Source: Vibrio alfacsensis (GTDB taxonomy: Bacteria; Pseudomonadota; Gammaproteobacteria; Enterobacterales; Vibrionaceae). From it: a stretch of 64,000 nt of DNA. Every line of letters starts with the position of its first letter. Positions within the stretch are counted from its first letter, which is position 1. The DNA lies in NCBI RefSeq assembly GCF_003544875.1, contig NZ_CP032094.1, forward strand, positions 1,178,001 to 1,242,000, in the 5' to 3' direction. The notes under the pieces are model-generated. The model searched no databases. It saw only the letters and a list, made by a program, of their open reading frames with translations, and had not been told where the DNA came from. Made by a program: the position numbers and the translations under genes. Positions 36,328 to 60,449 of the stretch are shown here, piece by piece.

Positions 36328-36469
36328 GTTGTTTCTCCTTTGATCGGACACTTTCATCATAGAGATTTTTACCCTAGATAAACCGCCTAATCTTTTAATT
36401 ACATTCAATATATTTTGATAATCACACGACTCGACCGGGTAGTGTTGAGATACTTATCTGTTAACCTAG

Positions 36470-38519: not shown

Positions 38520-38589
38520 TTCATGCATCCTACTGGGATTCACTTGATTATGGATTGCTTTAAATAGCTGATGACCATCTAATGTAAAG

Positions 38590-40171: not shown

Positions 40172-40483
40172 GATACTGCTTATAGCTTAGCGATACTAGA
40201 ATGCCGTATTTTTATAGCCGTAATGAATAATACGCAATAGCTAGCTTGCTCATAGGCATTTGCTCAGAGTTAACCTGTGTAACCGGTTGGGCTACCGTGT
40301 TTTGATGGCTGTATGATATGGCGTGATTAGTATTGGAAAAACAGGATAGAAAAGATTAATTAGCAAATATATTTTGACAATGATTGTCTAACATTATTTG
40401 ATAATTAATCAAAACATACCTTGTTTTTGACTTATCTTGTTTCAAGTAGCATAAGCGCAATGATTTCACTAATAAGATTCATC

Positions 40484-41512: not shown

Positions 41513-41528
41513 ACACTAGGAGCCCGAA

Positions 41529-42077: not shown

Positions 42078-42246
42078 GCCAATCTGGTATATAGCAATTG
42101 ACTTTTGTATTAGTTTTATTCTTGAAAAGTCATGTTTGTCAGTAGCGCTTAGTGGGTTCGAAACACACAATGGGGCAAACATGAGTTGAAAGAACTGGCA
42201 CCATAACTTAATTTGTTAAATCTCGTCATTCTGTATATGGACTCCC

Positions 42247-42477
42247 AATTAATTACAACCGATTTTTAAACAGTGAAAGATAGATAGGATGCGTGCGTAT
42301 ATTCGGGCTCTTTGTGAGTAGCGAACTCTGCCCCTTTATGCATTCGCACCTTAATGCCACACCGAACAGTCGATATTGGATATCTTCAGAATGAGCTGGC
42401 TCTTTAAGGTCGGTCTTACCTGTCTTTCGCTCTTTATTATTGGTAGTAACTAAATTTCGCAAGTATAGATTTAGCTG
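42247..42477 (-). ncRNA. Candidate bridge-RNA region of the IS110 element
   Basis: This non-coding stretch between the transposase stop and the end repeat is where IS1111-group elements are known to encode the bridge RNA that guides the recombinase. Location and length fit; a structured RNA was not modelled. A 69-codon ORF inside it has no coding character. Confidence 0.4.
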
Positions 42478-43513
42478 CTAGGCAGCATGTTTAAATGAAG
42501 TAGAGTACTGAGTGTCATGTTTCAGCATAGACCATGCAGTGCGTATGCTTTTATTCGCTAACGCGACAGCAGCTCTTCTTAGGCCAGCTCTCACTATCAA
42601 GGCTTTTAGCCAAGTCTCCTTACCATTTTTAGGCTCTCGATACTGAAGCAATCGGACAACGGATAGAGCACCTTGGATGAGATTTGCACGCAGCCTTTTG
42701 TTTGCTACTTTCTTACTAATACCAAGCATAGTCGTGACACCTCCAGTACTGTACTGCTTTGGTGTTAAACCAATACAAGCAGAAGCTTCTCGGCCGTTTT
42801 TGAAATTTCTACCAGTGTGTCCTAGTGCCAAATAGAGGCCGAGAGCATTGATAGGGCCAATCCCTTCCAAGTTCAAGTAGTTTTTACACTCTGAATGCCG
42901 GTTGATGTAGTAACTCAATTCTTTTCAATCTGAACTTTTGTTCTGAAAGCCCTTGGTGCAAGTTATACATATGGTGTAAATAAGGGCGCAATATATCAGG
43001 AAGTTCACTATCGCCATTTTCTAAAATTTGCGGGATGATTTTGTTAAAGGCGCTAACTCCCTTTGGGATAGCGATACCAAACTCTAAAATCAGACCTCGC
43101 ACCATGTTACTGGTAGCCACTATGAGGTCATTGAGATGTTGCCGAACGCGTTCAATCGATTGAAGCGCTTGAGCATCGATAGTTTTCACTCCAACAGAAT
43201 GAACATTAGGTTGGCGTGCTGCAATTGCGATGGCAAGAGCATCATTTTTATCAGTCTTTTGGTTTGCTCTAAAAGGAGTTACGTTTTTTGGGGCAATAAT
43301 ACTGACATCATGGCCTAAGTTTTGGCAAAAACGTCCCCAATGATGCGCAGATCCACAAGCTTCCATTACTACATGAGAAGAGGGTTGTTTTGTAACCATG
43401 ACTTCAATTTTGGTTATTTAAGGCTTTTCAGAGGCAACTTGATCTCTAACTAGCTTACAAATTTGAAATGAGTTTTTTGCTAAATCAATGGCGATAGTAG
43501 TAGACTTTTTCAT
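42478..43513 (-). pseudogene. IS110-family transposase, interrupted
   Basis: The protein starts MKKSTTIAIDLAKNSFQIC, with the DEDD-type catalytic Asp in AIDLAKN, then PSSHVVMEACGSAHHWGRF, then TDKNDALAIAIAA. The C-terminal part has GIGPINALGLYLALGH and GLTPKQYSTGG, the Tnp20 domain with the catalytic Ser. An in-frame TAA stands at codon 32 (43418-43420) and a frameshift lies near 42905-42920. About 345 residues if intact. Confidence 0.85.
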
Positions 43514-43582
43514 GTATGGCTCCCGATTAAAATTTCTGTTTGCACTAAAATTTTAGCTCCTCCTTGGAGGGGGGAGTCCATA

Positions 43583-44164
43583 CATCGAACCGCGAGGTAC
43601 GAGCATGATTCAGAATCTACTAAACGATTTCCGAGTGGTTCAGGTTAGTCATTAGTTTAGAAGCATACTTTCTGATATTCCTAGTCTCGCGTAGGCTCGC
43701 TGAAATGATCGTTTTCACTTGCACCGAAAGTAATTCCCCTACTCTATCACTGGAGATAGAACAAAACATAAACACCAAGTTCAAAAAAACGAGCTAATTG
43801 GTTCGCCTTGTATGTTCATAACTTGATGACTGGCTTTTGTGCACTTTTGAACTTCGGTGTACCGACCGTAAAAATTCTTAACAGAGATGCTTTAGAGCCG
43901 AATGGTTGCTCTGTGCCATTTGCGATCACGCAAATTTAACTCGCTCTTACCCGCCCGTTAGCCTTCAGACATCAATTAGATAAGAACTAAACTCGGCATT
44001 TATTGCCCATCTTGCTTTAGCTAAATTGACAGTAAACTTCGAGCTCGACTGTCAGAAAAATTTACAATCAGGTCACCGCAAACACCTAACCAATTGTTAT
44101 ATATCGCAATTCATTTTGGAATGATAATTGCCTTAAAGCAGAAAACTATTGCGAACAGGGCGTC
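43583..44164. other. Gene-free region between IS110 and the PEP-CTERM gene
   Basis: About 580 bp with no credible ORF or known element. It carries the promoter of the gene at 44165 at its right end. Confidence 0.4.
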
Positions 44165-44794
44165 ATGAAGAATATGAAAGGCTTAATACTGTTTTTAATT
44201 GTTTCTGCCAGTGTCACATTCAAAGCTGGTGCAGGAATGATTTATGAAATATCTGGCGATATTACACCTGATGTGAACAACTCTTTTACTGGCTCATTTA
44301 GCATCATGGTTGATTCTGATGATTTACAGCTCGAGTTGTTTGGCGCACATCCAAACCTTCCCACAGGCTTAGTTGATGGCCCTTGGTACAGCTACGATGT
44401 TTTCTCTGGCGATGTGTCTATTGATGTTGCCCCTCTAGGGAGCTTAGTCTGGTCAGAGTCTGACATCAGAGCAGATTTTAACGAACCAGCATTAAGCTTT
44501 GGTGGTCTAACATCAGAGCTTTGGTTGACGTCACCGATTGAAGATACTTTCCAAGATATGTCGATTGTTTTTGAAAACAGTGACGGTCTTCTGTACCTCG
44601 GATTTCAAACGGCAAACTCGCAAAGCGTTATCATCAATCAAGTGATTTTCGATGACAGAAACAACATTATTGAAGTTGGTACATTCACAAACGTGGCGGT
44701 TTCAAAGGTAGAAGTCTCTGAACCCCATATGGCAGCAATTTTCGGCTTGATGTTAACCAGTTTGTTATTAATTAGAGCTAAGCATAGAGCTTGA
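44165..44794 (+). CDS. PEP-CTERM-like exported protein
   Basis: This 209-residue protein has a signal peptide (MKNMKGLILFLIVSASVTF, cleavage near AGA), an all-beta middle with FTGSFSIMVDSDD and FGGLTSELWLTSPIED, and a C-terminal tail of SEPHMAAIFGLMLTSLLLIRAKHRA: Glu-Pro motif, hydrophobic span, basic end. This is the layout of PEP-CTERM sorting signals, which need an exosortase; none is visible here. It sits between two insertion sequences. Confidence 0.68.
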   Translation: MKNMKGLILFLIVSASVTFKAGAGMIYEISGDITPDVNNSFTGSFSIMVDSDDLQLELFGAHPNLPTGLVDGPWYSYDVFSGDVSIDVAPLGSLVWSESDIRADFNEPALSFGGLTSELWLTSPIEDTFQDMSIVFENSDGLLYLGFQTANSQSVIINQVIFDDRNNIIEVGTFTNVAVSKVEVSEPHMAAIFGLMLTSLLLIRAKHRA

Positions 44795-44893
44795 TTGCGG
44801 GTGCGCTGCGGATTCACCCTACAAAAAGGGAATTTAAGGGTTTAAAACTATAATGACAGCAGCTTCTGATTCAGAAGCTGCTTAGGTTAATAA

Positions 44894-46124
<1,231 letters not shown>

Positions 46125-46136
46125 TAACCAACTCAA

Positions 46137-46924
46137 CTATAACAAGCGATTCTTATACTGCTCCGGTGTAATGCCGGAGTATTTCTTAAACATCGCAATG
46201 AATGGACTGGCTTGGTTGTACCCTAAGGTGAGCGCCACTTCTTTTACTGTCTGCCCTTTTCTTAACAGCTCCATTGAATGCAAATAGCGCACTCGCAATC
46301 GCCATTCCGTAAAACTCATCCCTAATTCACTCTGGCAGTGGCGCGCCAACGTGCGTTCCGTTGTGTGCACTTTTTCTGCCCATTCTCCGAGGCTAACATC
46401 ATCTGTAGGCGCCTCTTCAACAGCTTTCAAAATGGGTTCAAGGTACTTATTATTGGTCGTTGGTAAAAAGTGATGTTCGACTTCTTGTTTCGCTAATTGA
46501 TCTAACAACACTTGAACAATACGCTTGTCTTCATCACTCTGTGCAACGTTGATTTTTCGCTGGCGAAAGTCTTCCACAATCGCGGACACTATCGGCGTTA
46601 CCTTGATCAAGCTGGTTTTTGTTGGAAAATGTGGGGTAATTCTGGGGCAATATTGAGAGAACAATATTCCAAAGGTTTTCGGTTGTAACTTGTGTGCCGG
46701 ACTCCAGCAGGCACCCAAATGGCAAGGTGAGGCGGAGCTAAAAAACGGGTATCTTCGGCATCCATTTCTAAAATGCCGCCACTTATCAACTGAACTTGCC
46801 CCCAAGGGTGACTATGAATTCGCGTTTCAGTATTCGAAAGGAAAGCCTCGAAATTCATAAATACATCGGATGGCGCTATATCAATTGATAATGATGGGTG
46901 AAGATTCCTTGTACTCTTTCTCAA
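46137..46924 (-). pseudogene. AraC-family regulator, frameshifted
   Basis: The N-terminal cupin (IHSHPWGQVQLISGGILEMDAEDTRF, quoted as SHPWGQVQLISGG) and the C-terminal AraC domain (WAEKVHTTERTLARHCQSELGMSFTEWR and EVALTLGYNQASPFIAMFKKYSGITPEQY) lie in two frames. The break is at the A4 run 46626-46629 on the plus strand; one more base joins ELPH to PTKTSLIKV in one frame, total about 263 residues. It is divergent from the EamA exporter, which it would be expected to control. Confidence 0.83.
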
Positions 46925-47022
46925 AATTGTCTTCCTATCGCTTACGATGTCTTTCTAGAGATACTTTCCATTATAAAGACCTGTCAGACTAGCGCCATCA
47001 ATTATTGTGCGATGAGGTTCTC

Positions 47023-47931
47023 ATGGTTTACTTGCTTCCGTTTTTCACTGTTATGATTTGGGGCGGTAATGCCATTGTGAATAAAATGGCCTCAAGCACA
47101 ATAGAGCCGAGCGCGATGAGTTTTTACCGATGGCTATTGTCGATGGTAATTTTAACCCCTTTCTGCCTTCCAGCTGTGCTCAGACAACGTCATATCATAA
47201 AGCCTCACCTAACCAAGTTAGCGGTACTCGCACTTTTGGGCATGGTTCTTAACCAATCACTTGGTTACTACGCGGGTCTAACGACATCTGCTTCCAATAT
47301 GGCGCTGATCACCTCCCTTGTGCCACTAATGAGTGTGTTCTTAAGTGTGCCTCTTTTGGGCAAATCCATTTCCATGCTGAGCATTGTCGGCGGGGTACTC
47401 TCATTGTCGGGCCTCGCGTTCATGCTTGGCCATGGCGATATTCGCTACTTTTTTAATCAAGACATAACTCAAGGGGATAGCTTGATGATTTTAGCATCCC
47501 TTTGTTACGCGGTTTACTGTGTGCTGCTTAAGCGTTGGAAAATGCCGTTCAACAGCATGACTCTAGTTTACATGCAAGGCGCATTCACTCTGATCATGCT
47601 AATGCCTTTATGGCTTCGTAGCGAACACTTGCTACCAAGCCAAAGCGCACTACCTCTGATTGCTTACGCAGGCATTGCAGCATCCATTTTTGCCCCGCTG
47701 ATGTGGGTAAAAGCGATCGATTTAATTGGGGCCGACTCAAGCGCGATGTTTATGAACTTAATGCCTGTTGTGTCCGTGGCACTTGCATCCACATTACTTG
47801 GCGAGAAGATTCATACCTACCATATCATCGGCGGTATGTTGGTGATCTCTGGCGTTATCCTTTCGCAAATCAAACTACGTAGAAAAGGCAAAGCCATCGA
47901 CCCAGAAGCGCAAGCTGCAACGAGCTCATAG
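47023..47931 (+). CDS. EamA/DMT-family exporter
   Basis: From ATG 47023 there are 302 residues with ten hydrophobic segments in two EamA repeats (MIWGGNAIVNKMASS at the start of the first, SLCYAVYCVLLKRWKMP in the second). Such proteins export amino acids or metabolites. Divergent from the AraC-type gene, which is a common regulator-exporter pair. A terminator follows. Confidence 0.87.
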   Translation: MVYLLPFFTVMIWGGNAIVNKMASSTIEPSAMSFYRWLLSMVILTPFCLPAVLRQRHIIKPHLTKLAVLALLGMVLNQSLGYYAGLTTSASNMALITSLVPLMSVFLSVPLLGKSISMLSIVGGVLSLSGLAFMLGHGDIRYFFNQDITQGDSLMILASLCYAVYCVLLKRWKMPFNSMTLVYMQGAFTLIMLMPLWLRSEHLLPSQSALPLIAYAGIAASIFAPLMWVKAIDLIGADSSAMFMNLMPVVSVALASTLLGEKIHTYHIIGGMLVISGVILSQIKLRRKGKAIDPEAQAATSS

Positions 47932-47936
47932 CAACT

Positions 47937-47971
47937 AAAAAGAAAAGAGCCATCATGGCTCTTTTCTTTTT
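47937..47971. terminator. Bidirectional terminator after the EamA gene
   Basis: A perfect 16-bp stem (47937-47952 with 47956-47971) with a TCA loop, A-rich before and T-rich after. It serves the EamA gene and the leftward envelope operon. Confidence 0.92.
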
Positions 47972-47984
47972 GCTTTCATTTGGA

Positions 47985-48566
47985 TTAAAGGGCTTCAGCC
48001 TGCTGTTCCAATTCTTTGCTTGTCTTTTGGCTCACAAACTCTTTGTATAGTGCCGCTTTATCCGTTGGATCAATGTCCGTACCTGCCGTTACAGCAGAGT
48101 TAAACATCTTTTCTGATTCAATTTTTGGCATGACTACTAGCGCACAAATTTGCTCTACGCCACCAATTTCAACCAGTGATACTTGCTCAACTTGGCTCTT
48201 TTGAATTGAAGTATTAGTTATTTGCTTAGCGATTTGCTCAAAAGATGTGCCAGAGGCTTGACCGTCAACTGAGCTATCAATTTTTTGATAGTTCTTCTCT
48301 AACACACTGACTTTAATATCAAGGTTTTGCGCAAGCGTGTTACGCGCTAGAGAGATAGCGTGGTTACGATCAACAGAAAAGTTACCTGACGCCGTAACAC
48401 AGTTTGACGCTGCAAAGCCATTCGCTGAAGTTGGGTTTAGTACCCAACTAGGCACATTGCTGCCTTTGTTGGTTTCCACTTTCGCCATGTTTTCAGAACC
48501 ACTTTGACTCGCACAACCAGATAAGATCACTGCGCTGATTGCAGCGGTAAGAATTTGATATTTCAT
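47985..48566 (-). CDS. LPP20-like lipoprotein (last gene of the envelope operon)
   Basis: From the ATG at 48566 (with AAAGGAA upstream) there are 193 residues. The lipobox LSGC puts the lipidated Cys at position 18. The mature part has PSWVLNPTSANGFAASNCV, then ISLARNTLAQNLDIKVSVLEK, the pattern of LPP20/FlgP-like lipoproteins. It is likely an outer-membrane lipoprotein facing the periplasm. It starts 12 bp after the transglycosylase gene. Confidence 0.75.
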   Translation of the reverse strand: MKYQILTAAISAVILSGCASQSGSENMAKVETNKGSNVPSWVLNPTSANGFAASNCVTASGNFSVDRNHAISLARNTLAQNLDIKVSVLEKNYQKIDSSVDGQASGTSFEQIAKQITNTSIQKSQVEQVSLVEIGGVEQICALVVMPKIESEKMFNSAVTAGTDIDPTDKAALYKEFVSQKTSKELEQQAEAL

Positions 48567-48578
48567 CTTCAATTCCTT

Positions 48579-49892
48579 TTAGATAATTGAGTTGGACTGC
48601 GCATGATAGGTTTTCATTCTATCGTTGACCTTTTTGAGATATTTGCGAGTCTCGTTATAAGGTAAGTTCTTGATAAGGTGCTCATATACTTCATCAGAAC
48701 TCATGGTATTGATTTTCTTAATCGCACTAGAAACACGTCGCTCACCAAATGCTTTGGCCACGTTACCTGACCCGGTGTTGTAAGCCGCGATCACACTGTA
48801 AGTCGCACTTTGTGGGTCTTTAATGCCTTTTAGGTATCGACTCTGAAGAATTTTTAGATACGCCGTGCCAGTTTCGATATTCAAATTGGGATCGTATAAG
48901 TCATTCGCTCTCATCGGCTTATCTTTACCGCGATATAGCTTATTCACATCATGACCAGCGGTTGTCGGCACGATTTGCATCAGCCCGTATGCTGGCACAT
49001 GAGATTTTGCCTTCGGGTTGAAATGCGACTCTTCGTGCATGATTGCCAAAACAAGTGCAGGCGGTAGTTCTCGCTTTGCACTTTCTTGTTGAATCGCAGG
49101 AAGGTACTGATTGGCGCGGTGCGCCAGTGATGATTTTGGAATCTTGACCTTATACTCAACAATCTTTTTAGGCTGTTGCTTTAGTTGCTTCTCTTGCTGA
49201 ACTAATTCTTGCTTCACAGCAGCAATGCGTTTTTCTTCCTGCTTCACCATTTGTTGTTTTTGCTGAACAATCACTTGCTCTTGCTTTTGTTCACTTAACA
49301 CCGCACTTTTTTCAGCAGCAAAGATGTCAAGTTGACTCATTTGGCGCTCAGTTTGCGCCTCAATCTCTTTCTTCACCTCTTCGAAAGTCTTTGGTTCTAC
49401 TTTTATTTCCTCAACGAAAACCATTGTTGGCTCGGCTTTTTTAGGTTGAGTTACACCAACTTCTTCAAACACCTTGGCGTTTTTCTCGATAACGGCATTG
49501 ACGACTTCAGCTTCAACAACTGGAGCTTCGGCTTTTTCTTCTTCCGCAGGCGGTAAGTAGCTAACCGTAATCTCACCTTTCTCCAAATCAACAACGGTTC
49601 GTGCGTTATGTTGTTCGTCATAAACCACTACCACATCCGGAGAAGGTATTTTGGTGTCACCCCATTTTTGAATAGAGGCTTTCTGTTTTTTGTCCCAATC
49701 CGCTAAGTAAGCTTGCTGCCATTGATTGAACTCTTGAATTTGGGCGGCATACCATTGCTCAAACTCATCCGTATCATCAGCGGTTAATTGTTCGATTTCT
49801 TGGTCCAGTTCAGCAAAAGGATCATTTGCAATACTTGGTTGCATCACAATTAGGTTTAACAACGCAGCCAGTGCGCAATATTTCAATTTCAT
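48579..49892 (-). CDS. MltC-like lytic murein transglycosylase
   Basis: This 437-residue exported protein has a signal peptide ending PSIAND with no lipobox Cys, unlike E. coli MltC. Residues about 25-110 look like the MltC N-terminal domain, 165-260 is a long Gln/Glu/Lys coiled coil (KQEEKRIAAVKQELVQQEK), and about 285-425 is the SLT domain: LAIMHEESHFNPKA with the catalytic Glu, YGLMQIVPTTAG, and AAYNTGSGNVAKAF. It cleaves peptidoglycan to allow insertion of a structure. Context suggests it opens the wall for the operon's complex. Confidence 0.87.
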   Translation of the reverse strand: MKLKYCALAALLNLIVMQPSIANDPFAELDQEIEQLTADDTDEFEQWYAAQIQEFNQWQQAYLADWDKKQKASIQKWGDTKIPSPDVVVVYDEQHNARTVVDLEKGEITVSYLPPAEEEKAEAPVVEAEVVNAVIEKNAKVFEEVGVTQPKKAEPTMVFVEEIKVEPKTFEEVKKEIEAQTERQMSQLDIFAAEKSAVLSEQKQEQVIVQQKQQMVKQEEKRIAAVKQELVQQEKQLKQQPKKIVEYKVKIPKSSLAHRANQYLPAIQQESAKRELPPALVLAIMHEESHFNPKAKSHVPAYGLMQIVPTTAGHDVNKLYRGKDKPMRANDLYDPNLNIETGTAYLKILQSRYLKGIKDPQSATYSVIAAYNTGSGNVAKAFGERRVSSAIKKINTMSSDEVYEHLIKNLPYNETRKYLKKVNDRMKTYHAQSNSII

Positions 49893-49918
49893 AAATTGAG
49901 TTACCGTAATTTGTTAAA

Positions 49919-50683
49919 TCAGAAATAAGAAGACAGATCTCCGACACTCTCAGCTTGTTGCTCAAACATTTGATCTTCAATGTCTATCACCAAACGCTCG
50001 CATTCTTTGCTTGAGCACTGCTTTGCGATGAACAAGCTTTCCTCAAGTTCTCCTTGCTCAAACTGCCATTGAGCTAGCCAGTGCTTGATTTCACTGTTGG
50101 AAATTGCGGAAACATCGACATACTGCTGATAGTAATTTTCAGCTTTGGTCACGTCTGATTGAGATAAGAGCAAGGTGACTAAACCTGCGGCATCCATTGC
50201 AACGCTAGGTTCTTTGATGATCAACGGTAATATCGGCTTGATGTGCTGGTACTGCTTGGTTGAGTAATACGCAATGGCATAGTTCAGCGCTGTGGTTTGC
50301 AGATTGGTTTTGTAGCCAGTATCATTGACATTCGCACTGCACTGAGCTTGACTCTTACTCACTGAAGAAAACTGAATATTGGTCAGTTCATAAGTTAGAC
50401 TCGCAAAAGGCCACGAATCTAAAGTTTCACGAATGAAACCACCTTCAAGCAACTTCTCTTCGTATTTTTTGCGAAGCTCTAAACCAAGCCCTTTACGACA
50501 CAATGACTTCATTTGTTTCGTGGTCAGTTCACGCTGTCTTTTCACTTCAACTGACACTTCTGAGTCACTGGTTTTAAGCTCATAATCCGTGCCATTGAAC
50601 GACCAAGAATGAGAGTCGGAAGCAAAAACTGGTAGACCTAAAAGGCCTACCAGAACAAGCAAGTATCTGTGGTTACAGATCAT
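49919..50683 (-). CDS. Exported hypothetical protein with helical repeats
   Basis: 254 residues with a signal peptide (MICNHRYLLVLVGLLGLPVFAS). The N-terminal half is beta-rich with Cys pairs; the C-terminal half has TPR/Sel1-like helical pairs (LNYAIAYYSTKQYQHIKPILPL, KAENYYQQYVDVSAI). Its start overlaps the DUF6844-like gene by 11 nt. Probably a periplasmic scaffold protein of the operon. No family name can be given. Confidence 0.65.
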   Translation of the reverse strand: MICNHRYLLVLVGLLGLPVFASDSHSWSFNGTDYELKTSDSEVSVEVKRQRELTTKQMKSLCRKGLGLELRKKYEEKLLEGGFIRETLDSWPFASLTYELTNIQFSSVSKSQAQCSANVNDTGYKTNLQTTALNYAIAYYSTKQYQHIKPILPLIIKEPSVAMDAAGLVTLLLSQSDVTKAENYYQQYVDVSAISNSEIKHWLAQWQFEQGELEESLFIAKQCSSKECERLVIDIEDQMFEQQAESVGDLSSYF

Positions 50684-51974
50684 TTGCGTTACTCACTTGA
50701 CCAGATGGTCCTTGAGTATTGTTGCTTCCGTCAGTCAGACCACCGGTTGTTGAAATTTTGTGGTCTGAGCTTGCGTTTTGACCTTCACGAACGCGCTTTT
50801 TGTTTTCTGCAGCTGCTTGCTTTGCCGTCGCCTCTAGAGAAGGGGCATAAACCGCAACGGCTAACATCCAGTCACCATCGCTGCTCTTAAAGGTTTTAAC
50901 AGAAACACCTGGAGGAACTTGACCCGCTGCAAATGACTTGTACGAATCAAAGCTCTTGATGTTGTTCATGAACGTGTGTTTGTCTTCTGCCAATACTTTC
51001 GCATCTGCTGGGTTAACGCTCTCAGGTGGGTACTCGAACTGTTCATTCTTCTCTAACTGGTTTTCAGTAAAACCACCTTCCCAGTAAACTTGTTCACCTT
51101 GCATTACTGCAATCAGACCGTTTCTCGCTTTTGCTTGCGCTTGAGATTTAGACATACCAAGCAGCTTGCGTTTCACGCTCTTATTCTTGTTGTCACGAAT
51201 GATCGAAGAACCGAAACCAAGTACAAACGACTCGCCCGTTTCAGCGTTGGTAATCACTTTCGCCCCAACAGGAGGCATAACACCCGCCTGCAGATCAGCG
51301 ATGATTTGTTTGAAAATCACGTTTGGTTCTGTAGTCTGAGTCAGAGCGCCCACTTTACGCTTCGTTTGTTCACGTGTTTTCGGCGTTGAAATCAAACTAA
51401 CACGAACTAGGTTTTCACTCGGATCATCATACACATCGAACGTCACGTAACCTGCCAACGCGCCTTTTACTGACTCAGCACAGTTATCGCTCATCATGCT
51501 TGTGGTGTTTGCCGCGCCTTCTGTCGCAGTATCAATCACATCCATGGTTTCGTTGATCGCTGTCGCACACATGTTGCTCATGCCTTCCATGTTTTCCACT
51601 AATTGCTTTTTCGCAATTTGGAAAGCTTTCATGTATGCGCCACGCTTAGATAACAACGTCGCGTTACGGTTTTCGTAAGTTTCGTAGCTACCAGAACCTG
51701 TAGATAGAATACCGATACCCGAGCCAACTGCGATCATCTTAACGCCATCACCTTCGTCTTCGATCAGGCTTTGATGAGCAACAAGTACTGCGGCTTTCGG
51801 GTCTGCTGCCACAACTAAATCACCCACCTCTTTTACGTCATCTGTATTTACAGCTTGTGTTTCAGAAGGTGCATCGGTTGCAGGAACGAGATCATTAAGG
51901 TCAAAATCTACATTTGCATGTGCAGAACCAAAGGCACTTGCTAGTACCAATGAAAGAAGTGTTTTTTTAAACAT
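50673..51974 (-). CDS. Exported DUF6844-like protein
   Basis: 433 residues: signal peptide (MFKKTLLSLVLASAFGSAHA), then an LPP20-like region (LLSKRGAYMKAFQIAKKQLVENM), then a segment with FDVYDDPSENLVRVSLISTPKT, and a low-complexity Gly/Ser/Asn tail at the end. The region around residue 130-230 resembles repeated FlgT/LPP20 domains. I believe it fits DUF6844, from memory. Overlaps the next gene in the operon. Confidence 0.65.
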   Translation of the reverse strand: MFKKTLLSLVLASAFGSAHANVDFDLNDLVPATDAPSETQAVNTDDVKEVGDLVVAADPKAAVLVAHQSLIEDEGDGVKMIAVGSGIGILSTGSGSYETYENRNATLLSKRGAYMKAFQIAKKQLVENMEGMSNMCATAINETMDVIDTATEGAANTTSMMSDNCAESVKGALAGYVTFDVYDDPSENLVRVSLISTPKTREQTKRKVGALTQTTEPNVIFKQIIADLQAGVMPPVGAKVITNAETGESFVLGFGSSIIRDNKNKSVKRKLLGMSKSQAQAKARNGLIAVMQGEQVYWEGGFTENQLEKNEQFEYPPESVNPADAKVLAEDKHTFMNNIKSFDSYKSFAAGQVPPGVSVKTFKSSDGDWMLAVAVYAPSLEATAKQAAAENKKRVREGQNASSDHKISTTGGLTDGSNNTQGPSGQVSNANDL

Positions 51975-51992
51975 AAATATCCTGTAGAGGTC

Positions 51993-53390
51993 TTAAAGCA
52001 CGTTGATTTGGTAATCGTTCAAAACACGTAGCTTGGACTGATAATTTGGCTGATGAATGCGCAACGTTGGCTGGATAAACTGAGCAAGGTCATTGGCGTT
52101 GTTTAATGAGCGAAGTCGGACAATCACCTTGCCAGAACGACTTTCAATCTTGATATCAGAAACGCCGTTGATCGCACTAAGCAAGGTATAAAGTTGACCT
52201 TGTTGACCTGCCGCTTTCGGCGTAAAGATCAATTCTCGAACCGGACCACCACGCATTGCCATCTTTTGGACGGCGCTATGTAACGCTTGAGTCAGCATTT
52301 TCTGGTTTTGATCGACAGCCAAGTGCACTGACGCTAGTTCATTCAGCATCCCCTCTTTGTTAGGAAGGGTCATCAGTGTTGGATCGTTGTGCCAATTACC
52401 GTATTCATTACCCGCTCGGTCTAATAGCTTAGCCGCCAATTCCAACTGCAAGCCGGAAGGCGTCACTTTCTCTTTTTCTTGAACTTGAAGAATGATGGTT
52501 GCCTGCTCTGGAGTACCAGAGAGATCGAAGCCCATCTGAGCAAGAGAACTACTGAACGTGGTTTGAACAACCGGAAGGTGCGCATCCACGTAAACGGCAG
52601 GTTGCCCTAGACTCTTGATAAGTTGAGCGATCTTAGCCTCAACCTTTTGGCGTTCAACAGACACATCGAGCGTCACGACAAGCACACCATTTGGTTTAGT
52701 TTGGCTAGAAATTTCGCTCCAACCAGTAATCATACCTTGCGATTGCATTGATAAGGATTGGACAGCTACATCATGCAAGTTAAAGTCATCACTGACCGCA
52801 TTTGCCGACATGCTTGAATAGGTTTGCTGAAGGTAGCCAGATTTAACCATCACGCCCAAAACTTGGCTGATAGCACGACGAAATGCATCTTGCTCAGCCG
52901 CTTGGCGCGCACTTAAACCTTGCTTAGCGTTCGGGATACCCTCACCGATGACCACAACAGAAACCGTCGAGTCAGAACCCCAAACAATACCCTCGTCTGA
53001 GTCTTCTTCTGTTTGCGTTGGTGGCATAAGACGCACATTCACACAGGTATCATCGCCGTAGATTTCAGGTTGCCCAAAATCCGCAGTGATCATCCCTCTC
53101 TCGATTCCAGTTACTAACATTTCTCGAGCAGCTTGATTAAACTGTTCGTTGAGTAATTCGGAATCTTCAGAAGATAAAGAAAGTGAAACCTGCCCATTTA
53201 AAAACAGTCGCAGGTTATTGATCGCATCCGCTTTCGCACCCTCTATCGCTAACGCACCACGACCATAGGCGCACCCCTGCTCAACAAGAGCCAGTGTTGA
53301 CTGGCTCTTATCAAGTTCAAGCGCAGCTGCAGGTACAGCCGAAAGCAATCCACCGAGGGTAAGACTAAGACTTATCCCTTTTGCGCCCAT
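51993..53390 (-). CDS. FlgT-like exported protein
   Basis: 465 residues with a signal peptide ending VPAAALELD. Two FlgT/LPP20-like units are visible: YGRGALAIEGAKADAINNLRLF at about 40 and ARQAAEQDAFRRAISQVLGVMV at about 165, each followed by a beta region (NGVLVVTLDVSVE). FlgT is a periplasmic H-ring protein of the Vibrio flagellum; this gene is not in a flagellar cluster, so it may be a paralogue used elsewhere. Its start overlaps the CsgG-like gene by 19 nt. Confidence 0.65.
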   Translation of the reverse strand: MGAKGISLSLTLGGLLSAVPAAALELDKSQSTLALVEQGCAYGRGALAIEGAKADAINNLRLFLNGQVSLSLSSEDSELLNEQFNQAAREMLVTGIERGMITADFGQPEIYGDDTCVNVRLMPPTQTEEDSDEGIVWGSDSTVSVVVIGEGIPNAKQGLSARQAAEQDAFRRAISQVLGVMVKSGYLQQTYSSMSANAVSDDFNLHDVAVQSLSMQSQGMITGWSEISSQTKPNGVLVVTLDVSVERQKVEAKIAQLIKSLGQPAVYVDAHLPVVQTTFSSSLAQMGFDLSGTPEQATIILQVQEKEKVTPSGLQLELAAKLLDRAGNEYGNWHNDPTLMTLPNKEGMLNELASVHLAVDQNQKMLTQALHSAVQKMAMRGGPVRELIFTPKAAGQQGQLYTLLSAINGVSDIKIESRSGKVIVRLRSLNNANDLAQFIQPTLRIHQPNYQSKLRVLNDYQINVL

Positions 53391-54550
53391 GTGCTGCGTT
53401 CCTTCATGAATTCCATCGGGACACCGACGCTAACTGCAAAGATTCGACGCTGACGATCTGGACGGTAAATACCCTGCTCAGCTTCGTCTTTCACTTGATC
53501 AGCAAGCTTACTGTCTTTCCAGCGTACAATTTTGCCTTGAGCACTTTGTTGGCTAGGGTTAACCGTCGCAACACCGATTGGCTCAACAAAACCTGCACTG
53601 TACTCAAATACAACCATGGTTTCATTTGGTAATACACCAGCATTTTGACCACGATCTAGCGAGATTCGGTCGCCTTTAATGCCCATAACTTGTGCTGTTG
53701 CTGGCATCTCTTTTAGCAGACGAGTCAACATGATATCGAAGCCACGTGACGCCATTTCGTTCATCACAGAATCAACGTCTTTGCTACTGGTGTAGTTAAA
53801 ACCGCGGTAGTAGTCTCCATTTGCGATTACGGTTGTGAAGCTTTCCTTATCACGAACATCAAAATTAGAAACGCGGATCTTACCGATATTCGGGTAGCTC
53901 AGCTTTTCACGAGTGTACGGGTCAATAACACCCGTCGTCATTTCCATTGATGTTTGGAATAAAGACTGCGTAGAACCAAAGAGCATATCGCCAGTTTTAA
54001 GCACGTCGACTTTCATGATGTAGTCCGTCGATAACTTGTCACGACCACTCATTTTTTGTGCGACTTTTGCTGCACCTTCATCGGCAAGAATCTCTTCCAT
54101 CGCCGCGTTTACTGACTTAGTGTCACGCGTCAAGATACGGAAACGGTTCACACCCGCAAATTGGTTTTCTAAGGTGTTCTCAAGCGCTTTCGTTTCGAAC
54201 TTACCAATACTTGAATGCATTGCATTGAATACATCGGCAGATTTGCCTTGAAGGTTCTCGCTAACGTCGGTTTGAACGTCACCGAAGTAAAGGCGAATAG
54301 TCTTTTTAGCTAACGGACAACGGCTGTCTTTCTCGTTTGCTTCGTAAGTACAGAATTGAAGACCTTGAGTGTTGAAGTATGCTGGAACTTCAATGTCACT
54401 GTTGGTGAATTCAAACGCTGACTTACCAATGATTAAAGACGAGTTGCCTGCGTTACTCTCAACTGCGTAAGTTTGTTGGCTGGGCGTGCTATTACACCCA
54501 GCCAAAACAAGACCAGCAGCGACAAGTGTTGCGATCTTTGAATATTTCAT
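53372..54550 (-). CDS. CsgG-like lipoprotein
   Basis: 392 residues. Lipobox VLAGC with Cys19. The middle part has a CsgG/FlgO-like layout: LENTLENQFAGVNRFRILTRDTKSV, AKVAQKMSGRDKLSTDYIMKVDVL (quoted as GRDKLSTDYIMKVDVL). Near residue 290-330 is a FlgT-C-like barrel: GIKGDRISLDRGQNAGVLPNETMVV. The start overlaps the preceding stop (TAATG). Probably outer-membrane-anchored and a core part of the assembly. Confidence 0.7.
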   Translation of the reverse strand: MKYSKIATLVAAGLVLAGCNSTPSQQTYAVESNAGNSSLIIGKSAFEFTNSDIEVPAYFNTQGLQFCTYEANEKDSRCPLAKKTIRLYFGDVQTDVSENLQGKSADVFNAMHSSIGKFETKALENTLENQFAGVNRFRILTRDTKSVNAAMEEILADEGAAKVAQKMSGRDKLSTDYIMKVDVLKTGDMLFGSTQSLFQTSMEMTTGVIDPYTREKLSYPNIGKIRVSNFDVRDKESFTTVIANGDYYRGFNYTSSKDVDSVMNEMASRGFDIMLTRLLKEMPATAQVMGIKGDRISLDRGQNAGVLPNETMVVFEYSAGFVEPIGVATVNPSQQSAQGKIVRWKDSKLADQVKDEAEQGIYRPDRQRRIFAVSVGVPMEFMKERSTWAQKG

Positions 54551-55260
54551 TACGACTTAACTTTCTCTGCTAAAACTTTGTCTAGGTTCTCTAGTTGCTC
54601 GATTGTGTTTTGGTCTAGAGAAATCATGTCGTTTGCATCGTAAACAAGAAGAGAACGTGCTTTCATCTCGTTGTAAGCTTCAACAACTGGCACTTCTTCT
54701 TTTGCTTCTGCATCCGCTTCGCCTTCTTCTTCAGACTCGTTCGATAGGAAAGAAAGTGCGTTGCCTAAACCCGCCATTGCAGAATCTTGCGCAATTACTG
54801 CCGCGTTGTCTGAAGCGATAATTGCAATTTCAGCCGCCTCAAGCGCGATGTCTTTCGCTAGCTCAATGTTCTTGTCAAAGATGGAATCAGACGCAGCTTT
54901 GTACGCTTCAACTTGTGGGCGAATTTTCTTGTTTTCAGCTTTGCCTTCATCGAATTCATTCATCGCAACAAGAAGCTCTTCATCACTCTTATCAGCATTG
55001 ATCTTTAGGAAACCTGCTACGTCTGCATGCTTGTCTGCTAGTGTGCGGTAGTCTTGGAATACAGCACATTGACGCTCTTGAATCGACACCATCACTTTAG
55101 ATACTTTGTCTACAGCGTAAGATACTGGTGTGTACTCAGAGCCTAGCTCAGTACAAGATTTAACAAGAGCTGCACTCATTTCGTTACGGTCAACCGTCGC
55201 AGACTCCATACCTGGCATTGAAGAACAACCTGCTAGTGCGGTAGCAAATAGAGAAGCCAT
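54550..55260 (-). CDS. Lipoprotein with coiled coil; start probably at 55276
   Basis: As written, the ATG at 55260 gives MASLFATALAGCSS: a lipobox at Cys12 but no basic residues ahead, which is abnormal. An ATG at 55276 with AAAGGA upstream would give a proper N-terminus (MFK..TVMASLF) if the T5 run 55266-55270 had a different length, so the frame is probably off there. The mature part is acidic and helical, with EIAIIASDNAAVIAQDSAMAG and an Asp/Glu-rich stretch near residue 180. 236 residues as called. Confidence 0.65.
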   Translation of the reverse strand: MASLFATALAGCSSMPGMESATVDRNEMSAALVKSCTELGSEYTPVSYAVDKVSKVMVSIQERQCAVFQDYRTLADKHADVAGFLKINADKSDEELLVAMNEFDEGKAENKKIRPQVEAYKAASDSIFDKNIELAKDIALEAAEIAIIASDNAAVIAQDSAMAGLGNALSFLSNESEEEGEADAEAKEEVPVVEAYNEMKARSLLVYDANDMISLDQNTIEQLENLDKVLAEKVKS

Positions 55261-55331
55261 GACTGTTTTTAAACATTTCTGTATCCTTTAGATCAATACT
55301 GAATAGATAGATTTATTAGTAAGCTTTTTAA

Positions 55332-56194
55332 TTATTTTTGCTCAGCAGCCAGTTTTGCCGCCGCAGAGCTAGCTTGGGATTTACCTAACACGGTGATCAC
55401 CTTTTGGGTCACCATATGAGATGAATTTGAATCGAAGACTTTAAGTTGGATACTTTGCTTGGCGACAAAGTCTTTCCCTTGTCGTCCCTGCTGGGATTTC
55501 GTCTTGATATAAACGGAGATGCCACCATGATTCGACGCAAATGCGTGACGTGATAGCAACTCGTGAATTTGATGAGAAAAAGCATCATTCGATGCGACAA
55601 ACGAAATTGAGAGCATTTCTCTCTTCGCGTTCATCGTTTCGCTAATCTGTAGGTGTTGTACATGGTATGACTCCGCAGCATCGGAATCTAAAATACCGAG
55701 CACATCGAGCTGAACGGCACTTTTCGTCATTAGCTCTTCAGCATGAAAGTAGTCCTTCACACCACGCCAGTTGTTGTTGAGATTTTTAAGTTTTATCGCA
55801 GCCGTTTGGTACGAGACCGTCAAATCATGCTCAACCTGTTTCTGCCAGTTTTTTTTACTCAGCCGATAGCGATACTCACAACTTTTCTCGCCACATTCAT
55901 GACTTAAAACTTCCAAGTGAGGGATTTCAATTGGAAGTGAGTGTATGGATGAATCCTGAGAAAAAGAGGAGTCAACACCATGAGAAGTCTTAACAATAGA
56001 TGACTTTTCATTCACTTCGATAACACTAATCAAGTTAAGTGCCAATTGCTTCTTAGCATCTTTTAGAGCGACATGTTCAGCGTCACCAAACCCTGAAGCA
56101 TACAGATACCCAGAGTCTACCCCAGCGTATATCTTTATACTAATTAGGGAGATAGCTAAACTAAGACTTAAAAACGGAACAAGAGGCTAACCAT
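55332..56194 (-). pseudogene. LPP20-like periplasmic protein, frameshifted (first gene of the operon)
   Basis: An ATG at 56194 reads MVSLLFRF then stops; one more base in the A5 run 56170-56174 (plus strand) gives a good signal peptide (hydrophobic, ending IKIYA) and then GVDSGYLYASGFGDAEHVALKDAKKQLAL, the LPP20-like start (quoted as ASGFGDAEHVALKDAKKQ). The rest runs to 55332, about 287 residues, with a beta-rich middle. It heads the eight-gene operon. The frameshift may be a sequence error. Confidence 0.72.
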
Positions 56195-56625
56195 AAAGTG
56201 TTATTTAAAACGGGCAGAACCATACGAAATAATTAAACCATATGCAATTGAGCAAGCAATCACCAAACAGCACTCTCAATGAATATTTATTCATAAAAAT
56301 TTGTGTGATATTCATTCCACAATTACAGTCCCTTACACAGCCCTTACAAACAAAGACACATCATTCTCAAAAGTAAGATAGCCAACAAAACAGATATTCA
56401 ATTAATTGAATTAGTGCGATTTTATCAATAGTATATTTTTAATAAGTGTGACTTATGTTTTATCTATAACATGATAAAACTCGATTTTGAAGCGGTTTTA
56501 GCCAGCTTTCGGATTGCTTAATCCAACTCGAAACGACACTGATGTGATAAATGTTTTGCTAACGCATTTAAGAGTCGTTGCATTGCTGTTACATTGAAGC
56601 TAAACAACGCACAAAGGAATGACAA
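56195..56625. promoter_or_regulatory. Promoter region between the envelope operon and the thioesterase gene
   Basis: About 430 bp of AT-rich sequence, expected to hold the operon promoter near 56200-56300 and the thioesterase promoter near 56560-56600. No ORF and no recognised operator. Confidence 0.4.
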
Positions 56626-57120
56626 ATGAGCAGTGGTCAAAGAGATATTACGCTTCGCTTTCTTGCTGAACCGGGGGATGTGAACTTCGGCGGAAAAGTC
56701 CATGGTGGTGCGGTAATGAAGTGGATCGATTTAGCCGCTTATGCTTGCAGCGCTGCGTGGAGTGGCAAATACTGTATCACCGCCTATGCTGGCGGCATTC
56801 GTTTTGTTGCTCCCATTCATGTGGGTAACTTGGTCGAAGTCAGTGCAAAAGTCATCTACACCGGACGCACATCAATGCACATTGCGATTGATGTCCAAGC
56901 AAGCGACCCAAAAGTGCTAAAAAATCGTCTGACCACGCACTGCATTGTTATCATGGTCGCGGTGGATGAGAATGGCAAACCAACAGATGTGCCAAAGTGG
57001 GTTCCGGAATCAGACGAAGATAAAGCATTAGAGCAATCGGCTATCCGCCTTATGAACATGCGTAAAGAGATTGGCGAAGAAATGGAAGCGCACGTCAAGT
57101 ATTTGAAATCGCCCTATTAG
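56626..57120 (+). CDS. Acyl-CoA thioesterase, hotdog fold (YciA type)
   Basis: 164 residues with a hotdog domain: DVNFGGKVHGGAVMKWIDLAAYACS is the conserved helix region with the catalytic Asp, followed by VGNLVEVSAKVIYTGRTSMHIAIDV. Cytosolic; hydrolyses acyl-CoA. A heptanucleotide repeat starts two bases after the stop codon. Confidence 0.87.
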   Translation: MSSGQRDITLRFLAEPGDVNFGGKVHGGAVMKWIDLAAYACSAAWSGKYCITAYAGGIRFVAPIHVGNLVEVSAKVIYTGRTSMHIAIDVQASDPKVLKNRLTTHCIVIMVAVDENGKPTDVPKWVPESDEDKALEQSAIRLMNMRKEIGEEMEAHVKYLKSPY

Positions 57121-57121
57121 T

Positions 57122-57175
57122 AACTGACAACTGACAACTGACAACTGACAACTGACAACTGACAACTGACAACTG
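57122..57175. repeat. Heptanucleotide tandem repeat (AACTGAC)7.7
   Basis: Seven perfect copies of AACTGAC (57122-57170) plus AACTG. It begins right after the thioesterase stop codon. Confidence 0.98.
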
Positions 57176-57345
57176 CGGGTTTCTACTCTCTCCAACCCCA
57201 TCATGCAAAATCACAGTACGAAGCAATGTCATGATTACGACGTTTTTCAAGGTTGTTGTCATCATTTGCTTCGTATTGTCATAAATATTTCACCAAGATC
57301 TGCTTAAATTCTCTGACTTGTTCGGCGTTGTATAGAGTTAGGATC

Positions 57346-57591
57346 TTGAAATTACAAAGCACAACTTTAAGTGAGAGCACACTAACCAACTTGAAAGCAG
57401 TGGAATACCAATGGGTACGCACCATGTATGTCGAGGGTTATAACGAAGCTGAAATTAACCACTACATTCAAGCGTGCTTTGGTGGTGATTCCACGTTCGC
57501 GAACTTGTTTCGTCGGGTCGCTCTGCAACAAGAAAGCCTCTATACCTTACTGCAATACGTTGGCTGTGCTCCCTCAAGCCGAGAGTTTTAA
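57346..57591 (+). CDS. Small hypothetical protein
   Basis: I chose the TTG at 57346 with AGGATC upstream; the frame is open further left but without family-like sequence. 81 residues, soluble, mixed alpha: LKAVEYQWVRTMYVEGYNEAEIN then FANLFRRVALQQESLYTLL. Not recognised. A later ATG at 57424 is a possible start. Confidence 0.4.
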   Translation: MKLQSTTLSESTLTNLKAVEYQWVRTMYVEGYNEAEINHYIQACFGGDSTFANLFRRVALQQESLYTLLQYVGCAPSSREF

Positions 57592-57747
57592 CTTACGCCC
57601 GCTTACCCTTTCGTATGCCCCTACTTTTAAGATATTTATGTGATGTGCTACGCAACGCAGTTTTGAGCATCTGTGTAATCCATTACAAAATCGCTAATCT
57701 CTAATCAAAACATAACAACATATATTTGTTTAAAAGACAGACATAAA

Positions 57748-57769
57748 AACCTGAGTCTAGACTCAGGTT
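57748..57769. terminator. 22-bp perfect palindrome
   Basis: AACCTGAGTCT with its exact complement, no loop; T-rich on the minus side (TTTATG). It may be a second terminator behind malG or a protein site. Confidence 0.5.
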
Positions 57770-57899
57770 ATGGTTACAAAACTGTTAGTGATTAAAGCGT
57801 AAGGAACTAAGCTAACAGCCAGCTATGCGTAACGCCAACAAAAAGCGGATATTACTGATCGGCGGCCAAACCAAAATTGTAATATCAACGCTATTTAAA

Positions 57900-57921
57900 A
57901 GGGCGACCTGTTGGTCGCCCT
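57900..57921 (-). terminator. Terminator of malEFG
   Basis: Stem AGGGCGACC / GGTCGCCCT with TGTT loop, followed on the minus strand by TTTTAAATAG, about 48 bp after the malG stop. Confidence 0.87.
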
Positions 57922-57968
57922 ATTTCTTATTATTCGGTTTACGTTAAGACTTAATGACCAATTAAGAA

Positions 57969-58859
57969 TTAACCTTTCACACCACCAGCTGTTAGACCAC
58001 CAACAAGCCAGCGTTGAGCAAGTAAGAATACCGCTGTAATTGGTACTGCTGAAAGTACCGCAGCCGCTGCAAAGTCACCCCATAGGTAGTTTTGTGGGTA
58101 AAGATACTGTTGCATACCAACTGCTAACGTGTACGAGTTTACATCAGATAGCAGCAGTGACGCTACAGGAACTTCACCGATCACCATGATAAATGACAGA
58201 ATAAACACTACTGCTAGGATTGGCACAGAAAGTGGCAACAGTACCAAACGGAATGCTTGCCATGGTGTTGCACCATCTAGCGCTGCCGCTTCTTCTAGAG
58301 AAGAGTCGATACTCTCGAAGTAACCTTTAATCGTCCATACGTGCAGTGCAATACCGCCCAAGTAAGCGAAGATCAAACCACCGTGGGTATTCAAGCCTAA
58401 GAAAGGAATGTACTGACCCAACTTATCAAACAGAGCGTAAAGTGCAACCAGTGCCAATACTGCTGGGAACATCTGGAAGATCATCATTGCTTTAAGGATG
58501 GTGTTCTTGCCTTTGAACTTCATACGAGCAAACGCATAAGCAGATGTTGTTGACAGTGCCACAATCAAAATTGCAGAAATACCGCCTACTTTTACTGAGT
58601 TCCATAGCCATGTCATTACTGGGAATGGCGGTGGTGTCACCGAACCATCAGCATTCGTAATAGACATACCCAGAGCCAATTTCCAGTGATCCAATGTTGG
58701 GTTATCCGGAATCAAGCTACCCGTCGCGAAGTTACCCTCACGGAATGAAATTGCGATGATCATCAACAGTGGGAAGATGATCAGAGCTAAGAACGCCCAC
58801 ATAGCTGCATGCGTAGCCCAAACTCGATATTTTAATGACTTGCCTTGTACCATTGCCAT
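57969..58859 (-). CDS. malG: Maltose/maltodextrin ABC permease MalG
   Basis: 296 residues, the length of E. coli MalG, with six membrane helices. The EAA loop [22 protein letters not shown] contacts MalK. It ends [12 protein letters not shown], matching the conserved MalG end. It starts 12 bp after malF on the same transcript. Confidence 0.95.
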
Positions 58860-58871
58860 TATGATGTCTCC

Positions 58872-60449
58872 TTAATCTTGAGCTACTTTGGTTACACGTA
58901 GGTTGAGTAGAGCTAACGCGCCAACCAACAGGAAGATCAGTGTTGCTACTGCACTTGCTAGACCAAAGTCTTGACCACCAGCACCCTCAAACGCGATACG
59001 GTACGTGTAGCTAACCAATAGGTCTGTGTAACCTGCAGGCTCGGACGTGCCGATCATGTTCGGGCCACCACCTGTCAACAATTGAATCAATACAAAGTTG
59101 TTGAAGTTAAACGCAAAGCTCGCAATCAATAGTGGCGTTAATGGCTTAAGCATCATTGGTAGCGTGATACGTGTGAAGTTGGTAATAAAGTTCGCACCAT
59201 CAATCGCAGACGCTTCATATAAGTCTTCTGGAATCGCCTTCAACAAGCCCATACACAGAATCATCATGTAAGGGAAGCCTAACCAAGTGTTCACAATCAG
59301 GATCATTGTCTTCGCTAGGAACGGGTCAGAGAACCACGCAGGGCTTATACCAAACAGCCCCTCTAACAACATATTGATCTCACCAAAGCTTTGGTTAAAT
59401 AGACCTTTAAAAATCAAGATAGAGATAAACGCTGGTACCGCATAAGGTAAGATAAGCAATAAACGGTAGACAGAACGTCCTTTCAACGCTTCCCATTGCA
59501 CAACACTTGCCAATACAAGGCCAATCACTAACGTAAACAGTACCGTCAATGCTGAGAACACAATGGTCCAAATGAAAATACTAATAAATGGTTCTTTGAT
59601 GCCGTCGTCTTTCCACACACGTTCAAAGTTGTGAGTACCAATGCTAACCACAAAACCAGGTGAAACTGTTTCACCAACAAATTGACCATTTGCATCAACT
59701 GGTTGGTAGTAACCGACTTCCATATTAGGGCGCAGCAGTTCTTCCGTGCGGTTGTTGTAAAGTGACTCGCCGTCTTCTTGTAATGTATACAATGGTACAA
59801 CCGCTGCAAACTTACGTAGACCGCTCATACGAATGTCATCACCGTTTGGCAGGTGAAGATCGACCCCACTCAACGCACTACGATTTTTAACAATCGTTTT
59901 GATCGGCTCTTTTTCGCCTGTTGGCTCTTGAGTGATTGGCGTTAAATCGAAATCGGTCGCTGAAAGTCCGTTAAGTGTGAAGTTTGGTGTCGCAAGAAGC
60001 TCACCGTTTTTCTTCACCACAATTTGGTGGCCTTGTTCAGTTTTGTACAAGGTAAACGGGTAACTTTCACCACTTTGATAGGTTCTATCCAGCAGTACGG
60101 TTTGTGCACGATCGAACGATAATTGGTTTTTTGCACTGTAGTTAGTAAACGCCAATCCTATGGTGTACGCCAATGGGAAAAGGATGAACAGAATCATCCC
60201 GGCGATACCTGGGTAAATATAACGATGTGCGTAAGTCTTTTTACTACCGAAAATATACAGCGCTAAACCGGTAAGAATAAGCGTCAGTAACGCAAAAGCG
60301 ATCTCACCGCGAGAATACATTAGGATAGTAGCGTAGCCATTGATAATGCCGACTGTGCCTAATAGTGCCCATTTGATAAACACTTTTTTGCTGCTCGGAA
60401 GGTTGGCTTCTGGTGCTGTCATAGCATTTGTACCTTGAACTGACTGCAT
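58872..60449 (-). CDS. malF: Maltose/maltodextrin ABC permease MalF
   Basis: 525 residues, slightly longer than E. coli MalF (514). It has N-terminal helices, the large periplasmic P2 loop (about residues 120-275), and the core helices with the EAA loop LYEASAIDGANFITNFTRITLPMM. An alternative ATG lies 9 codons in. It forms the translocation pore with MalG. A hairpin lies between malE and malF. Confidence 0.95.
   Translation of the reverse strand: MQSVQGTNAMTAPEANLPSSKKVFIKWALLGTVGIINGYATILMYSRGEIAFALLTLILTGLALYIFGSKKTYAHRYIYPGIAGMILFILFPLAYTIGLAFTNYSAKNQLSFDRAQTVLLDRTYQSGESYPFTLYKTEQGHQIVVKKNGELLATPNFTLNGLSATDFDLTPITQEPTGEKEPIKTIVKNRSALSGVDLHLPNGDDIRMSGLRKFAAVVPLYTLQEDGESLYNNRTEELLRPNMEVGYYQPVDANGQFVGETVSPGFVVSIGTHNFERVWKDDGIKEPFISIFIWTIVFSALTVLFTLVIGLVLASVVQWEALKGRSVYRLLLILPYAVPAFISILIFKGLFNQSFGEINMLLEGLFGISPAWFSDPFLAKTMILIVNTWLGFPYMMILCMGLLKAIPEDLYEASAIDGANFITNFTRITLPMMLKPLTPLLIASFAFNFNNFVLIQLLTGGGPNMIGTSEPAGYTDLLVSYTYRIAFEGAGGQDFGLASAVATLIFLLVGALALLNLRVTKVAQD

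Follow-up and report, generated by a model that had tools for sequence, protein, structure and literature searches.

An eight-gene Vibrio operon of FlgT-, FlgP- and Lpp20-like envelope proteins with a transglycosylase, away from flagellar genes

The operon and its products

We analyzed a stretch of 64,000 nucleotides from Vibrio alfacsensis (contig NZ_CP032094.1, positions 1,178,001 to 1,242,000), called the window here, with positions counted from its first letter unless another contig or locus is named. Its list of open reading frames (ORFs) holds a minus-strand run of eight at 47985-56045, on the 1.6-Mb contig C2 of the assembly, which we number 1 to 8 in the direction of transcription (Table 1). 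The intergenic gaps from gene 1 to gene 8 are 71, -1, -19, 18, -11, 26 and 6 base pairs (bp), so that the eight-gene minus-strand operon is real. A preliminary description of the locus had reported eight adjoining genes that overlap or lie at most about 75 bp apart, and the measured range of -19 to +71 bp bears this out. No minus-strand promoter-like site was found upstream of gene 1. The region contains 13 terminator-like sites, against 10.0 in shuffled sequences, and only the length of the stem beyond gene 8 is notable. The G+C content of the operon (0.442) is close to that of the window (0.436), and composition therefore does not mark it. No phage match was found for the operon; one plasmid record matched, a non-mobilizable 805-kb Pseudoalteromonas replicon.

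Table 1. Coordinates of the operon genes and flanking features in the window
Feature	Position	Strand	Basis or remark
Gene 1, open part as read	55332-56045	-	LPP20-type family
Gene 1, 5' end with signal-peptide stretch	56046-56194	-	out of frame with ATG 56194 here; open and in frame in V. harveyi (locus L001)
Gene 2, small lipoprotein, lipobox LAGC	54550-55260	-	no Pfam family; start later than in relatives
Gene 3, lipoprotein with FlgT/CsgG/LptE-type fold	53372-54550	-	predicted model, Foldseek, second aligner
Gene 4, FlgP/FlgT_N-type family, 465 amino acids	51993-53390	-	Pfam and profile matches of remote relatives
Gene 5, exported, weakly LPP20-like	50673-51974	-	Pfam LPP20 E 0.0018, under cut-off
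Gene 6, exported, weakly TPR-like	49919-50683	-	Pfam TPR E 0.071-0.28
Gene 7, MltC-like SLT transglycosylase without lipobox	48579-49892	-	SLT Pfam match, structures, motif
Gene 8, LPP20-type lipoprotein, lipobox LSGC	47985-48572	-	family profile (A5) against Lpp20
Terminator-like stem	47936-47972	listed on +	17 pairs, 5 of them G-C; separates gene 8 from the convergent gene
Upstream region travelling with the operon	56195-56625	.	identity with V. harveyi 86-98% per 50-base bin, falling to 82-84% from 56650

Inspection of the N-termini revealed lipobox-type signals in genes 2, 3 and 8 (three likely lipoproteins had been proposed), whereas genes 4, 5, 6 and 7 begin with signal peptides of the Sec type. 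Export signals had been claimed for all eight products; they are readable in seven, since the corresponding stretch of gene 1 is out of frame. Gene 1 has no in-frame ATG, GTG or TTG above 56045, and the ATG at 56194, formerly given as its start, opens another frame. In gene 2 the usual start of its relatives is likewise out of frame, and an ATG at 55260, later than theirs, is used instead. Two further genes of this genome are similarly split between frames (one of AraC type at 46137-46924, the other MltC-like at G000:C1:476187-477160), which makes small assembly errors a plausible cause of both breaks.

By sequence comparison, gene 7 contains an SLT domain beyond doubt (Pfam E 1.4e-29). The active-site motif E-S-x-F ... 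GLMQ is present in 27/27 gene 7 sequences, a count that takes in the window and one duplicate locus; a pattern search detected 26 of them and inspection the last. The nearest structures are those of MltC (E 8.9e-40), in line with the earlier label of MltC-like transglycosylase, but gene 7 lacks a lipobox and reaches 188.7 bits against the NCBIfam MltC equivalog (184.1 in the genome search), under the cut-off of 375, while the genome has a separate MltC at C1:719783 with 407.6 bits.

Two products fall near Helicobacter Lpp20. The family profile of gene 8 (A5) matched the Lpp20 structure 5ok8 (E 2.9e-10), and that of gene 1 (A8) matched the LPP20-family structure 4kzs (E 5.2e-13); Pfam LPP20 was found in 10 of 22 members of the gene 1 family. 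Single window proteins, however, went unmatched or stayed under the Pfam cut-off, as did gene 8 (16.2 bits against 25.9), and in the LPP20 search of the genome itself no control genome gave a match. The locus also differs from Lpp20 in being a multi-gene set with a transglycosylase. For gene 5 the best profile match had an E of only 0.62. A TPR-like gene, as previously described, can be recognized in gene 6, but its Pfam matches are weak; the DUF6844-like domain also described was not recovered, since no operon protein matched Pfam DUF6844 at E<=1.

Pfam offered no notable match for gene 3, and a structure search with its single sequence returned nothing at E<=0.29 or better. Its predicted model (predicted local distance difference test, pLDDT, 81.4) was compared with known structures by Foldseek, and entries of FlgT, the Vibrio protein of the flagellar H/T rings, ranked first (LPHT ring 8z5n, E 1.9e-10; 3w1e, E 5.6e-10); chain 8z5n_0 was taken as FlgT from its length. 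CsgG, a pore protein, came second (E 4.6e-5) and the ring protein PelC lower (E 3.6e-3). Whole-chain template modeling (TM) scores were low throughout, at 0.23-0.25 for the FlgT-type rows, and a second aligner placed LptE-type lipoproteins level with FlgT. The safe statement is that the modeled fold is of the CsgG/LptE/FlgT type, with FlgT best by Foldseek. Unlike Vibrio FlgT, gene 3 belongs to a non-flagellar locus and to an operon with a transglycosylase, and the genome encodes its own FlgT elsewhere: Pfam FlgT_N matches once in the genome, at C1:2333191, beside genes that we take to be FlgO/FlgP-like. No flagellar ORF was seen next to the operon in the ORF list, as had been stated before, and the FlgT gene is on a different contig, C1.

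Gene 4 is connected to the flagellar proteins through its remote relatives. One of these matched Pfam FlgT_N with an E of 7.6e-4 and 20.4 bits, under the 28.8-bit cut-off; none of the eight window proteins did so at E<=1. The profile of the remote relatives aligned with FlgP of the Campylobacter jejuni basal disk (9hmf) over 93 positions (E 4.5e-5), the stretch after the helix included; the matched chain was read as FlgP from its name and its three copies. According to the available part of PMC12222027, 9HMF is a periplasmic scaffold of Campylobacter, and ring formation in the FlgP family is tied to an insert after the helix. The corresponding stretch of gene 4, residues 179-218, is of low confidence in the monomer model and has a conservation of 0.71, against 0.68 for the rest of the protein. 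Gene 4 differs from FlgP in its much greater length and in its non-flagellar operon, and the window protein alone was unmatched: its single sequence gave no structure match, to FlgP or otherwise, at E<=0.29 or better; its model (pLDDT 72.6; predicted TM score 0.54) had no Foldseek match at E<=0.001; and its VIA-align rows were taken up by a small C-terminal domain. The FlgT resemblance of the preliminary description is thus divided between two genes: it is clearest in the fold of gene 3 and, for gene 4, lies in its remote relatives but not in its own model.

Conservation and exchange between species

To follow the gene set in other genomes, we collected 28 related loci by their gene 3 or gene 4 relatives (L019, a duplicate of L004, was omitted). 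Of these, 24 contain the full set of genes 1, 2, 3, 4, 7 and 8. The presence profiles were built from the same loci, and gene presence is therefore partly by construction; the parts that do not depend on the choice of loci are the clustering, the profile comparison and the finding that gene 2 has no strong matches elsewhere. The exceptions to the six-gene core are L003 and L034, without gene 7; L035, without genes 1, 7 and 8; and L036, a short contig on which genes 1 and 2 were not seen. Gene 1 is in two pieces in L030 and weak in L034. At least three architectures exist, among which the gene order varies. Architecture A is the eight-gene form; B lacks genes 5 and 6 and has an ETEC_3214-type protein; the remote architecture C combines a TPR protein with one of ~540 residues that has no family match. 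Genes 5 and 6 are absent from the architectures other than A. Profile comparison joined the six core families across architectures with 97-100% probability at 14-33% identity.

The gene 3 profile was found in 17 of 196 Vibrio genomes, in two of them (G060, G165) through the remote form. Strong gene 2 matches (E 2.9e-51 or better) fell in precisely the same 17. The next-best gene 2 match, an 88-residue frame, had an E of 4.7e-7; matches of this strength or weaker occurred in 120 more genomes, mostly in short frames where listed, and are read as signal-peptide or Lpp-type similarity. One gene 4 relative is listed under the name V. natriegens. Outside Vibrio, the gene 3 profile appeared in nine genomes of the order sample (n=394), in five by partial matches of the remote form; in the class sample (n=369) it appeared in this genome alone. 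Judged from these comparisons, the operon is a conserved, co-inherited gene set, and co-conservation across genomes, on which the preliminary description had made its proposal depend, is thus found for both the six-gene core and the gene 2 and gene 3 pair.

The gene 8 profile reaches further, to 57 genomes, and ten additional loci (L042-L051) were hand-picked from the 63 matches listed. Seven of the ten are reduced clusters in which gene 8 and gene 7 are joined by a gene 1-like protein and a 331-345-residue lipoprotein, and six of these seven have an ETEC_3214-type protein as well. No relative of the 331-345-residue lipoprotein was detected in the core; the two tested had no Pfam match, and its matches were of signal-sequence type only. 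The other three loci are a gene 8-gene 7 pair, one locus beside a CHAT-TPR lipoprotein, and a decayed eight-gene operon (L042, G002:C35, 4895-6322) in which gene 8 is whole and genes 6 and 7 are in pieces.

Next, the DNA of the operon was compared with that of other species. Against V. harveyi (NBRC 15634; G030, L001), the 500-base bins at 48000-55999 are 98-100% identical, while the flanks drop to 75-83% at 46000-47999 and 77-85% at 56500-59999; some V. harveyi stretches at a greater distance are 86-93% identical. At a resolution of 50 bases, high identity ends near 47900 and 56650, at the terminator and at the neighbouring gene, and the exchanged unit therefore comprises the operon and its upstream region. 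In V. sinaloensis (G048, L004) the operon is 89-99% identical without the same flanks. For comparison, the gene that we take to be gltX is 86% identical to its counterpart in V. harveyi and 80% in V. sinaloensis. These identity patterns indicate that the operon passes between species as a unit. Because species swap it as one block, it probably gives a selectable property without co-transferred partners.

A putative periplasmic scaffold and its alternatives

How should such a gene set be read? The kinship with flagellar outer-ring proteins noticed at the outset was borne out by the FlgT fold of gene 3, the FlgP match of remote gene 4 relatives, the Lpp20 match of gene 8 and the LPP20 match of the gene 1 family. 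In profile searches of the eight proteins, they did not all match one named system, and no published description of this gene set was found among the papers listed in the literature searched, most of it outside subscription journals. The building blocks are known; what we did not find described is such an operon away from flagellar genes and with a transglycosylase.

The reading that we favour, tentatively and a little short of an even chance, is a non-flagellar periplasmic scaffold that is anchored in the outer membrane and served by a transglycosylase of its own; FlgT/CsgG- and Lpp20/FlgP-type proteins would most likely build it as a ring or a stacked disk. The location of a lipoprotein is decided by an aspartate after the lipobox cysteine; genes 2, 3 and 8 have none there, and their products would sit in the outer membrane. 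By analogy with FlgT, FlgP, CsgG and PelC, the products of genes 3, 4, 8 and 1 may polymerise. Gene 7 would open the peptidoglycan locally and so make room in the wall for the scaffold. Genes 5 and 6 could be variant parts of the scaffold, as other lineages lack them and some have other proteins instead. The conserved core encodes no inner-membrane motor and no substrate, and the scaffold would thus either support a machine whose genes lie elsewhere or, on its own, tether and stiffen the outer membrane. The lack of an inner-membrane component is also evidence against a secretion system that powers itself.

The strongest rival, which we consider unlikely though deserving of weight, is a set for peptidoglycan remodelling that forms no ring: LpoB- and Lpp20-like outer-membrane lipoproteins would reach the wall and control both synthases and the dedicated transglycosylase. 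Remote gene 3 relatives carry the automatic source name 'penicillin-binding protein activator LpoB', and the reduced clusters, which lack genes 2-4, also fit such a set: genes 7 and 8 are kept together in 8 of the 10 further loci. For comparison, an excerpt of PMC4234667 describes a 22-kDa LpoB-like protein, taken here as the true LpoB from its size. The Pfam LpoB signal is weak, however, present in 7 of 56 closer gene 3 relatives at E<=0.01 (best E 7.2e-4) and lacking in the window's gene 3 at E<=1, and the model of gene 3 is placed by Foldseek with FlgT and CsgG. A wall-regulation set would also leave the FlgP/FlgT_N-type gene 4 unexplained.

An outer-membrane secretion or assembly system resembling that of curli, with gene 3 as the pore, is improbable. 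The rank of CsgG among the folds of gene 3 and the outer-envelope nature of all products would fit it; Pfam CsgG, by contrast, had no match at E<=1 among the operon proteins and none in the genome, although the control search matched in 4 of 14 genomes. CsgG has two membrane hairpins, and on inspection the secondary structure of the gene 3 model offers no clear counterpart of both. Moreover, the operon has neither a curli gene nor a Pel synthase gene, and no CsgA/CsgB-type gene was found in the conserved core as clustered, where no search was aimed at such substrates.

Equally doubtful is a module of defence or competition at the envelope, directed against phage, injected toxins or vesicles. 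It would explain the patchy presence in Vibrio, the block exchange and the decayed copy in L042, but such a spread equally fits niche genes, and none of the eight proteins had a PADLOC match at E<=0.1. The surroundings were also searched, in a flank set of 141 proteins of 120-900 amino acids from within ~4.2 kb of the cluster in 18 of the 28 loci. In this set 148 defence models matched, most of the 25 listed in one member each; there was no control set, and no conclusion is drawn from these matches. Least probable is an accessory of the cell's own flagellum, which the FlgT/FlgP-type relationships and the flagellar FlgT locus of the genome might suggest, since the gene 3 family is absent from 179 of 196 Vibrio genomes and no flagellar gene adjoins the operon.

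Taken one step further, the favoured scaffold may represent a kind of envelope machine in marine gammaproteobacteria that has yet to be described. It would be a FlgT/FlgP-type ring or disk that stands by itself in the outer membrane, has a dedicated transglycosylase, moves between species as one cassette and is related to the stock that supplied the flagellar outer rings and the basal disk. This wider proposal is possible, and we hold it with less assurance than the scaffold itself. FlgP is described, in the part of PMC12222027 consulted, as one member of a broad family of which part forms rings. This operon offers a defined case in which the existence of such rings in the absence of a flagellum, and their role, can be tested.

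Neighbouring genes and companion proteins

The operon faces a convergent gene at 47005-47931, which we take to be a DMT-type transporter, and a divergent one at 56626-57120, presumably thioesterase-like; the neighbours beyond are presumably malG/malF-like. Between the neighbours of the operon and the malG-like gene lies the small RNA MicX, at 57741-57933 on the minus strand (Rfam RF01808, 187.7 bits), the only Rfam match beside the operon.

Among the flank set, 169 Pfam families were found, the commonest being LysR with five members, and no shared partner was evident among the 25 families listed. Several individual proteins accompany related clusters. The ETEC_3214-domain protein at L017:4602-5408 (minus strand, E 6e-16) and nine similar ones accompany genes 7 and 8 in many loci. 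The Escherichia coli namesake is described, in the available text of PMC5554520, as a CfaD-activated gene of unknown function in an island with a type II secretion system and SslE. A CHAT-TPR protein at L049:11766-14132 (minus strand, CHAT E 6.3e-64), with a lipobox-type N-terminus, adjoins gene 1- and gene 8-like genes. A mechanosensitive-channel-type protein at L020:6484-7662 (minus strand) adjoins a related cluster, and its domain occurs in 2 of the 141 flanking proteins. At the end of a remote-type cluster lies a zincin/M50-like protein (L038:17407-18177, plus strand; E 2.9e-4, under the cut-off), and L039 has a protein of equal length at the same place.

A stretch of ~12 kb elsewhere in the window, 34283-46131, is missing from the corresponding position of V. 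harveyi L001, where the matches to its two sides directly adjoin. Near the end of this stretch, at 44928-45954, are what we take to be pieces of an IS3-type transposase.

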